Position numbers and translations under genes: made by a program
DNA from: Erythrobacter sp. YJ-T3-07
Lineage (GTDB): Bacteria > Pseudomonadota > Alphaproteobacteria > Sphingomonadales > Sphingomonadaceae
Length of the DNA: 64,000 nucleotides
Reading direction: 5' to 3'
Assembly: GCF_015999305.1 (NCBI RefSeq)
Contig: NZ_JAEAGP010000001.1
Span: 682,001-746,000 of the forward strand
Shown here: in pieces, positions 24,751-27,584 of the stretch
Numbering within the stretch: the first letter of the stretch is position 1
How the letters are laid out: each line of letters opens with the position of its first letter
The notes under the pieces: generated by a model
Told to the model about the DNA's origin: nothing
The model's input: only the letters and a program-made list of their open reading frames with translations
Database searches by the model: none

Positions 24751-25836
24751 TCAAATCCGCCGCAGCGAACCACCCGAGACGTCCCACACCGCGGCCTCGG
24801 GCAGGATCGGGTCGAACGGCATCCGCTCGGTCCCCGTCATCCACACCTGCTCGCCATTGGCGGCGAGGCGCGCGAACAGTGCTTCGCGCCGCTGCGGGTC
24901 GAGATGCGCGGCAACCTCGTCGAGCAGCAGCAGCCCTGCGCGGCCGCGCGTCGCCAGCGCGCCATGCGCCAGCGTGATCGCGATCAGCATCGCCTTCTGC
25001 TCGCCGGTCGAGGCGCGCGCGGCGGGTACGCCCTTGTCGGCCAGCGTCACCGCCAGTTCCGCGCGATGCGGCCCGATCACGGTGCGGCCCGCGCGGCGTT
25101 CCGTACGGCGATTGGCACGGAGCGCTTCGGCCAGCGCATCGCGCTCCTCCGGACCGGTCGGTTCGATCGCCAGCAGCGGGCGGGGGAACAGCGCATCGGC
25201 CTGCGCCTCCAGCTCGCGGTTCAGCTCTTCGACCAGCGCGCGGCGATTGGCGGCGATCGCTGCGCCATGCTCCGCCAGCTGCGCCTCCAGCGCATCGAGC
25301 CATTGCGGGTCGGGCGGCGTATCGTCGGAGAGCAGCCGGTTGCGGTTGCGCAGCGCGGTTTCGTAGCGGTTGGAGAGCGCGGCGTGGCCGGGCGCGGTCG
25401 CCAGCGCGAGCCGGTCGAGATAGCGCCGCCGCGCGCCTGCGCTGTCGGTAAACAGTCCGTCCATCGCCGGCGTCAGCCAGCGGACCGAGAGCCATTCGGA
25501 TAGGCCCAGCGCGCTGCGCTCCGCCCCGTTGACACGCACCCGGCGGCGAGTGGGTTGTGCCGCATCGACCACGGTGCCCAGCTGGACCGGCTCCGCGCCG
25601 TCGGCGGGTTGGAGCCGCGCCGCCACGGTGAACCCACCCGGCCCATCGATCCGCGTCATCTCGGGCAGCTTCGCCCGCCGCAGCCCCCGCCCGGGCGCAA
25701 GCAGGGAGAGTGCCTCGAGCACGTTGGTCTTGCCCGCACCATTCGCACCCACGAGCAGGTTGAACCGCGCGGTGTCCTCCAGCGCGGTCTGCCGATGATT
25801 GCGAAAATCGAGGATCGAGATGCGGTCGAGCGCCAT
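24751..25836 (-). CDS. recF: DNA replication and repair protein RecF
   Basis: A 361-residue SMC-like ATPase that, with RecO and RecR, loads RecA at gaps. It has the opening ISILDFRNH, Walker A GANGAGKT (residues 30-37), the signature-type STGEQKAML segment and Walker B LLLLDEVAAHLD. Length is normal. It is not next to dnaA, dnaN or gyrB here, an arrangement seen in many alphaproteobacteria. Confidence 0.97.
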   Translation of the reverse strand: MALDRISILDFRNHRQTALEDTARFNLLVGANGAGKTNVLEALSLLAPGRGLRRAKLPEMTRIDGPGGFTVAARLQPADGAEPVQLGTVVDAAQPTRRRVRVNGAERSALGLSEWLSVRWLTPAMDGLFTDSAGARRRYLDRLALATAPGHAALSNRYETALRNRNRLLSDDTPPDPQWLDALEAQLAEHGAAIAANRRALVEELNRELEAQADALFPRPLLAIEPTGPEERDALAEALRANRRTERRAGRTVIGPHRAELAVTLADKGVPAARASTGEQKAMLIAITLAHGALATRGRAGLLLLDEVAAHLDPQRREALFARLAANGEQVWMTGTERMPFDPILPEAAVWDVSGGSLRRI

Positions 25837-25913: not shown

Positions 25914-25972
25914 TTGGGAAAAATTCCCAAGCTTTCGGAAAGGTGAACGAGTGGTTGTCGCGTCGCTCACCT
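25914..25972. promoter_or_regulatory. Candidate enhancer-binding sites upstream of the sigma-54-like promoter
   Basis: Two inverted repeats sit 30-90 bp upstream of the -24 element. The first is TTGGGAA-3-TTCCCAA at 25914-25930 (perfect 7-bp arms). The second is AGGTGAACG-14-CGCTCACCT at 25941-25972 (8 of 9 matched). This is where an AAA+ activator such as a PspF-type protein would bind. The assignment is positional inference only; the activator gene is not in this window. Confidence 0.45.
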
Positions 25973-26003
25973 CCGAACCACGCAATTCCGGCATTTCTTC
26001 AAC

Positions 26004-26020
26004 TTGGCACGGCTCCTGCA
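26004..26020 (+). promoter_or_regulatory. Sigma-54 (RpoN)-type promoter of the small-protein/PspC operon
   Basis: The sequence reads TTGGCACG, four bases, then CTGCA. Compared with the consensus TGGCACG-N4-TTGCA, the only mismatch is one T in the -12 element, and the invariant GG and GC are spaced exactly 10 bases apart. It lies 56 bp before the first small gene, giving a leader of about 45 nt. No good sigma-70 promoter competes here. Phage-shock operons in enterobacteria are sigma-54-dependent, which fits the PspC gene at the end of this operon. Confidence 0.7.
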
Positions 26021-26075
26021 ATGTAGTCGATATCCGGCGGGATGGTCCCCCGGAAACACGAAAGGAACCACTCAC

Positions 26076-26195
26076 ATGACCACCACCGACCTCCGCAGCC
26101 GCATGTTCGCCGCCGTTATGGCGCTGGGTATCTCCGCCGTTTTCTTCGCCACCGCGATCATCCCCGCGAGCCCCACCGGCCTCGTTATCGCCTGA
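26076..26195 (+). CDS. 39-residue membrane protein, paralogue 1 of 3
   Basis: A small gene with an AAAGGA ribosome-binding site. The product begins MTTTDLRSRMFAAVMALGIS and ends AVFFATAIIPASPTGLVIA: a short polar N-terminus and a single hydrophobic helix. The last 17 codons encode exactly the same residues as paralogue 2 but differ at five synonymous positions, strong evidence that the protein is under selection. It is the first gene of the operon after the sigma-54-like promoter. No family known to me. Confidence 0.85.
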   Translation: MTTTDLRSRMFAAVMALGISAVFFATAIIPASPTGLVIA

Positions 26196-26248
26196 GCCGC
26201 CACAGCCTGAACCACATCGCCAACCGCTTTTCAAAGGACACACCGACC

Positions 26249-26362
26249 ATGCAATCCATCGCCCGCAACACCTTCGCCGCCGTCTTCGCAGTCGGCATCT
26301 CGGCCATGTTCTTCGCCACCGCGATCATCCCTGCCAGCCCGACCGGCCTGGTCATCGCCTGA
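26249..26362 (+). CDS. 37-residue membrane protein, paralogue 2 of 3
   Basis: Starts at the ATG at 26249 with an AAAGGA site in front. The product begins MQSIARNTFAAVFAVGIS and ends AMFFATAIIPASPTGLVIA, the same C-terminal helix as paralogue 1 and the same MQS-x-x-RN start as paralogue 3. One membrane segment, almost no soluble part. It is 53 bp after paralogue 1. It may be a regulator or stabiliser of the PspC-type membrane protein encoded downstream, but this is inference. Confidence 0.85.
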   Translation: MQSIARNTFAAVFAVGISAMFFATAIIPASPTGLVIA

Positions 26363-26400
26363 GCCACCCTCACCACAGATTTTCACTGGAGACCGACACC

Positions 26401-26517
26401 ATGCAATCGCTTACCCGCAACCTGTTCGCCGCCGCCGGGGCGCTCGCCTTCACCGGCCTCGCCTTCGCCTTTGCCATCGTGCCCGTGATGGTCGATACTG
26501 CCGGAATGGTCGCATGA
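26401..26517 (+). CDS. 38-residue membrane protein, paralogue 3 of 3
   Basis: Starts at the ATG at 26401. The product begins MQSLTRNLFAAAGALAFTG and ends LAFAFAIVPVMVDTAGMVA. It shares the N-terminus with paralogue 2 but has diverged in the C-terminal half. Its TGA overlaps the PspC start (ATGA), so it is translationally coupled to PspC, tying the whole small-protein set to that gene. Confidence 0.83.
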   Translation: MQSLTRNLFAAAGALAFTGLAFAFAIVPVMVDTAGMVA

Positions 26518-26729
26518 GCCAGTTCGACATCGACCGCCAAGCGCCGCAGCCCGCCCGCCAGTTCCGCCTCGACAAGCAGCGCGGCTCGATCGCCGGGGTC
26601 TGCGCAGGGATCGCCAACTATTTCGGTTGGGATGTCACCATGGTCCGCCTCGCCTTCGTGCTGACGACCATCTTCCTGACCGGCGCCCCGCTGATCGCCT
26701 ATCTCATCCTGTGGGCGATCGCCGACTGA
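26514..26729 (+). CDS. PspC-domain membrane protein
   Basis: A 71-residue protein consisting of one PspC domain: LDKQRGSIAGVCAGIANYFG, WDVTMVRLAFVL and PLIAYLILWAIAD. PspC proteins sense or stabilise the stressed inner membrane in the phage-shock response. PspA, PspB and PspF are not present nearby. The gene is coupled to the third small-protein gene and sits under a sigma-54-like promoter, consistent with an envelope-stress operon. Confidence 0.93.
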   Translation: MSQFDIDRQAPQPARQFRLDKQRGSIAGVCAGIANYFGWDVTMVRLAFVLTTIFLTGAPLIAYLILWAIAD

Positions 26730-26732
26730 CCC

Positions 26733-26753
26733 GGCCGGAGGCCCACTCCGGCC
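26733..26753 (+). terminator. Hairpin after the PspC gene
   Basis: GGCCGGAG and CTCCGGCC, perfect 8-bp arms with a 5-base loop, 3 bases after the PspC stop. No T-run follows, so it may need help from Rho or serve to protect the mRNA end. Confidence 0.5.
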
Positions 26754-26801: not shown

Positions 26802-27584
26802 TCACATTGCCGAAATGCCGCCATCCAGCCGCAGCTCCGCCGCAGTCATGAAACTGCTCTCGTCACTGGCGAGATAGAGCACGCCATTGGCGATTTCCTG
26901 CGGCTTGCCGACCCGCCCGAGCGGGATCTGACGCGCCAGCTTGCCCATCACCACTTCCTTGTCGAGCCCGGCATTCTTGCCGATCCCATCGAGGATGGGC
27001 GTGTCGACGAAGGTCGGGTGGATCGAGTTGCAGCGGATATTCCAGCCCATCTTCGCACAATAGAGCGCGACCGACTTGGTCAGCATCCACACCGCCGCCT
27101 TGCTGGCATTGTAGCCGGGCATGGTGTCGCTCGCGATCAGTCCCGCGATCGAGCTGATATTGATGATCGAGCCGGGCTGGTTGTCCTTCATCAGCTTCAG
27201 CGCCTTCTGGCAGCCCAGGAAAGGCCCATCGACATTGATCGCGAAGCCGCGGCGCCATTCTTCCAGCGTGCAGGTCTCGATATTGCCGCGCACGCCGATG
27301 CCGGCATTGTTGAGCAGGATGCTCAGTCCGCCGAGCTTGTCGTCCGCCATCGCGATCGCCGCGTCCCACTGGTCGGGCTGGGTCACGTCGTGTGTCATCG
27401 CGAAGGCGGTGTCCGCGCCCAGCTCCTGATTGATCGCATCGGCGGTCGCCTGCGCGCCCTCGCCATTGATGTCGGTGCACAGCACCCGCGCACCCTCGCG
27501 CGCCAGCGTGGTCGCGGCCTGAGCGCCAAGCCCCTGCGCCGCGCCCGTAATCAGTGCGAGCTTGCCCGCTACCCGTCCAGCCAT
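26802..27584 (-). CDS. SDR-family oxidoreductase
   Basis: A 260-residue classical short-chain dehydrogenase with TGAAQGLG at the cofactor site, LLNNAG, catalytic Ser in NISSIAG, and GYNASKAAV giving the Tyr-Lys pair. An acidic residue after the second strand (CTDINGEG) favours NAD over NADP. It resembles hydroxysteroid or cyclopentanol dehydrogenases of sphingomonads. Its start lies 16 bp inside the end of the upstream NUDIX gene, so the two are co-transcribed. Confidence 0.9.

Follow-up and report, generated by a model that had tools for sequence, protein, structure and literature searches.

The phage-shock-protein (Psp) response is a model for the way in which bacteria sense and survive damage to the inner membrane. 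The locus described here raises the question of whether a run of very small genes placed immediately ahead of a PspC gene belongs to this response and, if so, what the encoded peptides may do. It lies in a 64,000-nucleotide stretch of DNA from Erythrobacter sp. YJ-T3-07 (contig NZ_JAEAGP010000001.1, positions 682,001 to 746,000; hereafter the window), in which three tandem small open reading frames (ORFs) and a PspC gene, all on the plus strand, sit between recF and a gene for a short-chain dehydrogenase (SDR). From this context, a preliminary description had suggested a role in envelope stress. We argue below that the locus is probably a second PspF/sigma-54-dependent Psp operon, in which a new family of single-helix micro-proteins would be combined with a translationally coupled, reduced PspC (mini-PspC). 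We rate the regulatory circuit as known and the micro-protein family, which it combines with a mini-PspC, as new.

Three small genes and a mini-PspC

The three small ORFs start with ATG and encode proteins of 39 residues (copy 1, 26076-26195), 37 residues (copy 2, 26249-26362) and 38 residues (copy 3, 26401-26517). They are followed by the gene for a 71-residue protein comprising the PspC domain alone (26514-26729), the start of which shares 4 nt (ATGA) with the end of copy 3. The ORF coordinates thus agree with the preliminary description, which had listed three adjacent short genes for related single-helix proteins of 37-39 residues, the third overlapping the PspC start. Its remark that copy 3 has kept the N-terminus and diverged at the C-terminus is also confirmed by eye, the N-terminus being like that of copy 2. 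Upstream of the small genes lies recF (24751-25836, minus strand; TIGR00611 over its cut-off) and downstream, in convergent orientation, the SDR gene (26802-27584). A GC-rich hairpin after PspC, with an 8-bp stem and without a T-run (26733..26753, plus strand), is a possible end of the operon. The mini-PspC scores 71.8 bits against Pfam PF04024 (cut-off 25) and 58.6 bits against TIGR02978, which is under the cut-off of 104, the latter match covering positions 2-59 of 121. Its AlphaFold2 model is of modest confidence (pLDDT 69) and was used for the helices alone.

The pattern of codon changes makes the small ORFs look like real proteins under purifying selection. As had been noted before, copies 1 and 2 have exactly five codon differences in their final 17 codons, all of them synonymous, with 0 non-synonymous differences. 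Compared with the sister genome G006, dN/dS is 0.17 for copy 1 and 0.12 for copy 3; copy 2 has one synonymous and no non-synonymous change (dN/dS 0). Compared with G100, the ratios are 0.38 for copy 1 and 0.16 for copy 3, such that copy 3 has its own sequence conserved within the genus. Pooling independent pairs from 26 named loci with two 37-aa copies gave 0.42 for copy 1 (13 pairs) and 0.34 for copy 2 (12 pairs). The two other reading frames of this DNA gave ratios of 1.03-3.34, and the earlier claim that the protein sequence is being conserved is borne out by values that fall below 1 in the coding frame while those off frame do not. For PspC, the comparison with G006 yields 1 synonymous and 6 non-synonymous changes (ratio 2.09), which are too few to judge; dN/dS against G100 is 0.49.

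The three small proteins have no match in Pfam at an E of 10 and none over cut-off in NCBIfam, where copy 1 gives two weak matches (E 0.042 and 0.16). The earlier statement that no described family was known for them is thus in line with these two collections, neither of which has a model for them. With copy 2 as the query, matches were obtained in 32 of the 149 genomes of the organism's family, at 30 loci at least (L004-L033, including the window itself). In the 30 listed loci, recF (28 of 30), the SDR gene (29 of 30) and PspC (28 of 30) occupy the same places, and all 30 have a -24/-12 promoter site (see below), with a distance of 69-80 nt from this site to the start of the first small ORF. 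A search for homologues in relatives, which the preliminary description had proposed, hence found them in some of the family genomes, with promoter and gene order largely kept. In all 28 PspC-bearing loci of this set, PspC and the last small ORF share exactly 4 nt. Copy number varies: the 51 small ORFs are distributed as three copies in 5 loci, two in 11 and one in 14, and every one of them starts with ATG. Alignment of 46 of the 51 (alignment A2, which omits all three ORFs of L004, ORF 3 of L016 and ORF 2 of L025) gives a core near AAxxSLAxSAxFxAxAI(V/I)PASP.

A profile search detected the small ORFs in 39 of the 149 family genomes at an E of 1e-5 or better, and in 65 at 0.05; 110 had no match at 1e-5. 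Outside the family, nothing convincing was found in 289 genomes of the class: strong matches came from 2 genomes, both of the window's family, and the other 26 matched genomes were taken as chance (E no better than 3.8e-5; in 23 of them the match lay within an open frame of >90 codons). At the search sensitivity used, the small proteins seem to be confined to a subset of the sphingomonads. When a 43-aa member served as the query of a protein search, 13 relatives were returned, one of them named, as a hypothetical protein.

Counted over the 46 aligned proteins, positions 1-12 contain 56 basic and 36 acidic residues; beyond the helix there are 0 basic and 5 acidic ones. AlphaFold2 predicts for copy 2 a single helix of residues 2-26 with a mean pLDDT of 82. 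This charge distribution and the single predicted helix together suggest bitopic inner-membrane proteins of ~35-45 residues with an N-in/C-out topology. Alanine is the last residue in 39 of the 46, also where there is no overlap with a following gene, and this may be a C-terminal signal.

Promoter and candidate enhancer

The preliminary description had missed a promoter of the sigma-54 type, TGGCACGGCTCCTGCAA, that lies upstream of copy 1 at 26005..26021 (plus strand) and was identified by pattern match and by conservation in relatives. By its resemblance to the consensus, we take it to be a -24/-12 core element. Further upstream, the palindrome TTGGGAAAAATTCCCAA (25914..25930, plus strand) starts 91 bp ahead of the TGG of the -24 box and is a candidate PspF enhancer (UAS). 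Column conservation in 64 aligned promoters of relatives reveals another palindrome, GGCnGAATTCCGCC, just upstream of the -24 element. In the window this promoter-proximal element is degenerate (ACGCAATTCCGGCAT, placed by eye at 25980..25994, no strand assigned). Its half-sites in relatives resemble those of the enhancer by eye, and it may serve as a further binding site for PspF or for a different factor.

A similar arrangement is found at the canonical psp locus of the same genome (L003), in which pspF is divergent from a 50-aa ORF, pspA, pspB, pspC and further short ORFs. The pspF|pspA intergenic region carries TTGGCAATTATTCCCAA 71 bp upstream of TGGCACGCCGGTTGCAA. The pspA enhancer of E. 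coli K-12, TTAGTGTAATTCGCTAA, is a palindrome laid out over 17 bp in the same way and lies 81 bp upstream of TGG. The three palindrome-to-TGG distances (71, 81 and 91 bp) are spaced by roughly one turn of the helix. At E. coli pspG the palindrome pattern has no match, and a partly similar stretch is seen by eye.

The plain sigma-54 pattern with 2 mismatches proved useless genome-wide, with 876 + 932 matches against 1471 + 1396 in the control. Only the composite of palindrome and promoter (TTGG-N9-CCAA-N46-76-TGGCAY-N6-TGC) is specific. In silico, this specificity holds for the genome as a whole, in which the palindrome-core composite occurs exactly twice, here and at pspF|pspA. The proposed role in envelope stress gains independent support from the sigma-54 promoter and the PspF-type enhancer that this operon has in common with the pspF|pspA promoter. 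The remaining components are also encoded: PspF, PspA, PspB and PspC of the window's genome pass their NCBIfam cut-offs, PspF being 49% identical to that of E. coli, and a single rpoN gene was found.

The operon and its promoter in related genomes

The arrangement was also approached from the PspC side, so that neither small ORF nor promoter could bias the choice of loci. A scan of the genome collection with the mini-PspC alignment alone gave 133 relatives, of which the best 80, all from Erythrobacteraceae or from records titled other sphingomonads or Alphaproteobacteria, were used; the nearest named PspC locus to that of the window is from a Citromicrobium MAG (68%). A small ORF precedes PspC in 79 of these 80 named loci. 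The profile alone finds it in 75 and misses L155, L167, L218 and L222, whose ORFs are visible. The 4-nt overlap of small ORF and PspC is present in 52 of the 80 and absent from 27, with a gap of 31-60 nt in the 24 non-overlapping loci that have a listed PspC start. Among the 78 loci with at least 1000 nt of upstream sequence, every one has a sigma-54 site (74 by the automatic rule and four, L155, L167, L222 and L231, on recheck), and the enhancer rule finds a site in 71 (67 automatically and 4 on recheck), in 68 cases at exactly -91. The locus that lacks the small ORF, L231, keeps the promoter and PspC (PF04024); its perfect sigma-54 site lies 66 nt before the PspC start, closer than the 80-nt limit of the rule allows, and the strict rule without this locus gives 77/78 for the sigma-54 site and 70/78 for the enhancer. 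In dinucleotide shuffles, the sigma-54 rule found sites in 68 of 780 sequences and both rules together in 0 of 780; the corresponding counts on the reverse strand were 8 and 0 of 78.

It had been asked earlier whether the small proteins always precede a PspC gene. They do so in 28 of the 30 loci anchored on the small ORF and in 79 of the 80 anchored on PspC; "always" is too strong, as there is no PspC in the stretches examined around L020, L025, L092 and L095. Two small ORFs follow a composite promoter at L095, one follows a similar promoter with a variant -12 element (by eye) at L092, and one follows a -24/-12 site without the palindrome at L020. The existence of such PspC-less copies implies that the micro-proteins can be used alone.

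Across the 149 family genomes, the composite occurs at 88 places in 67 genomes and 3 times in the reversed control, from which about 3 matches are expected by chance. A pspF gene lies no more than 250 bp away from 34 of these sites, and a small-ORF profile match (23 at an E of 1e-5 or better, 5 weak) no more than 600 nt away from 28. At two of the 28 (G121, which is L095, and G055, which is L137), PspC is absent from the stretch examined. All 28 small-ORF sites are 105-107 bp long, and the pspF sites fall into two length classes, 18 of 85-87 bp and 16 of 105-108 bp. The other 26 sites comprise 21 that were read and 5 outside the loci read. Twelve precede a small ORF and PspC, seven of them with recF (the PspC of L119 is a fragment); two precede pspA operons without pspF nearby; two have PspC as the first gene and no small ORF (L107 and L130, just over the Pfam cut-off); and five matches, two of them overlapping, precede a secreted-protein family. 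The members of the latter (L122, L123, L124 and L125, from three genomes) are 84-91-aa proteins with a signal-peptide-like start and a common YC...C core (40% over 43 and 31% over 58 residues). They have no Pfam family over cut-off, and from their promoter they are a possible further PspF target. Two other arrangements were observed in passing. At L137, the composite promoter precedes a 36-aa small ORF and, after it, the gene for a 177-aa AhpC/TSA (peroxiredoxin) family protein, and at L102:1595-2050 three tandem small ORFs with an RRTLFAxxGALFV core stand behind a sigma-54 site in a stretch that has neither PspC nor recF.

PspF itself is widespread in the family, TIGR02974 passing its cut-off in 137 of the 149 genomes (139 at 1e-100). 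The composite site is present in 66 of 139 PspF-bearing versus 1 of 10 PspF-less genomes (Fisher p 0.023) and a small-ORF match at 1e-5 in 39 of 139 versus 0 of 10 (p 0.06), the PspF-less set being small and including some incomplete assemblies.

Small leading ORFs are also a feature of pspA operons. Of the 27 examined, 17 have a single-helix ORF of 39-61 aa in first place and 5 a longer version (162-173 aa); in the other 5 the ORF filter listed none. In the window's clade, the pspA operon opens with a single-helix ORF of 50-61 aa, mostly ending in -ELA/-EIA (L003:5428-5580, minus strand; L142-L146; L149-L151), which in some genomes shares 4 nt with the following ORF. A test for homology between the micro-proteins and this pspA-leader ORF of the clade found none. 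When compared with leaders of other genera, the micro-proteins gave an hhalign value of 83% with those of pspA (7 sequences), which is suggestive only, and of 95% with those of pspC (20 sequences), a clearer likeness. Several short ORFs are also located downstream of pspC in the canonical locus (L003:2549-3808, minus strand), the first of which is weakly PspB-like (PF06667, E 0.0005, below cut-off).

Possible function, alternatives and known systems

In E. coli, PspA is described as releasing PspF under stress (PMC9239133, in excerpt). We propose that the same would happen here upon stress to the inner membrane or the proton-motive force, and that PspF would then bind the enhancer at about -91 (TTGG-N9-CCAA) and, much as at pspF|pspA, open the sigma-54 promoter at 26005. 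A single transcript would then supply the inner membrane with N-in/C-out micro-proteins and mini-PspC. Once there, the micro-proteins would most likely pack against each other and against the helix of mini-PspC, thereby stabilising or sealing the stressed membrane. Co-expression and coupling with mini-PspC suggest a complex of several micro-proteins with PspC. The most likely role of the micro-proteins would be that of a membrane-stabilising Psp effector, regulated like PspG and comparable in its task to E. coli PspG or to PspB as a partner of PspC. A more general idea, which we put forward tentatively and would not yet bet on, is that in Sphingomonadaceae a bitopic micro-protein of ~31-61 residues stands first in the PspF-dependent operons (those of pspC, most of those of pspA, and free-standing arrays), and that these micro-proteins, and not PspC, would be a main product of the response. 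They might form a clade-specific class of Psp effectors, with partial homology between the operons of pspA and pspC and with tandem amplification, which would not need PspC in order to act.

Other explanations of the locus have to be considered. That the small ORFs arose by chance in GC-rich DNA is hardly conceivable in view of the dN/dS values with their frame controls, the conserved peptide motif and the fact that each of the 51 ORFs from the 30 loci starts with ATG. A more serious possibility is that they serve mainly to control PspC synthesis, as translational leaders or couplers, the peptides having no function of their own. The 4-nt overlap with PspC, found in 28 of 28 listed loci of the first set and in 52 of the second (the best 80 of 133), would fit such a device; we nevertheless regard it as unlikely, because the peptides are under purifying selection, occur in 1-3 tandem copies, are found as stand-alone copies with no PspC nearby (L092, L095, L020) and, in 27 named loci, are encoded without overlap. 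Signal peptidases cleave directly after an AxA motif. The nearly invariant A-x-A-I-x-P of the 46-member alignment and the basic N-terminus could therefore identify the ORFs as signal peptides, from which cleavage at AxA before I-V-P would free a periplasmic peptide of 10-18 residues. This too seems improbable, since related proteins from other genera have not conserved the AxA and the AlphaFold2 helix runs through the would-be cleavage site.

The identity of the activator is a separate matter. The genome encodes six strong sigma-54 activator domains, PspF and five others, such that the choice of PspF rests on the shared palindrome. An operon that is sigma-54 dependent and driven by another of these enhancer-binding proteins is accordingly conceivable, but we consider it very unlikely: the palindrome is the same as at pspF|pspA, its layout is E. 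coli-like, and the composite is otherwise rare. A PspF-dependent operon for membrane micro-proteins and mini-PspC is the reading that we retain. The sequence analysis itself gives good support to the small genes and the selection on them, to the family, to the structure of the operon, and to the promoter with its enhancer-like palindrome and the specificity of the latter in the genome; binding by PspF, induction by stress, orientation in the membrane, association with PspC and the effector role are inferred. The locus would then be a sequence-defined candidate PspF regulon in Alphaproteobacteria and points to a conserved, so far unnamed part of the sphingomonad phage-shock response. Its composite promoter can be used as a scan pattern in any genome. 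The micro-protein family, for which Pfam and NCBIfam have no model, offers a direct way to examine by knock-out what small membrane proteins do in Psp.

Published accounts provide few points of contact. Excerpts of one survey describe PspF as a Psp regulator in Enterobacteriaceae only (PMC9239133), those of another mention pspF-linked operons in some Alphaproteobacteria without detailing PspF (PMC11237479), and sphingomonads are not mentioned in the excerpts of either. In the excerpt of a Novosphingobium paper, PspC is named once, in a table heading (PMC5443232). Among the matches listed from the open-licence literature, none concerns a sphingomonad or alphaproteobacterial PspF regulon or small-protein family.

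Compared with known systems, the window's PspC passes the Pfam cut-off of PspC (PF04024) but stays below that of TIGR02978 and is reduced to the N-terminal domain. The locus resembles the PspB-PspC pair in that a small membrane protein is encoded immediately before PspC. It differs from this pair in that its PspC is the N-terminal domain and the genome has a separate true PspB, located in its pspA operon (83.1 bits, cut-off 51.7). PspB is longer than the window's small proteins, none of which matches the PspB models (PF06667, TIGR02976). A likeness to the YohP-like membrane proteins of E. coli lies in the description of both as small membrane proteins, not in a sequence comparison. In the excerpted account, these are typically <50 aa and up-regulated in stress; production of YohP induces the phage-shock response, to whose regulon that account does not assign YohP (PMC12719787). 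The PspG of E. coli and Yersinia is similar in being a small membrane protein encoded at a separate locus with a -24/-12 promoter, and E. coli PspF is described as binding the enhancers of both pspA and pspG (PMC3709507, in excerpt). None of the three small proteins matches the PspG models of Pfam and NCBIfam. Compared with PspG (E. coli pspG is a 243-nt CDS), the window's proteins are about half the size, are encoded in tandem, are followed by a mini-PspC and belong to sphingomonads.
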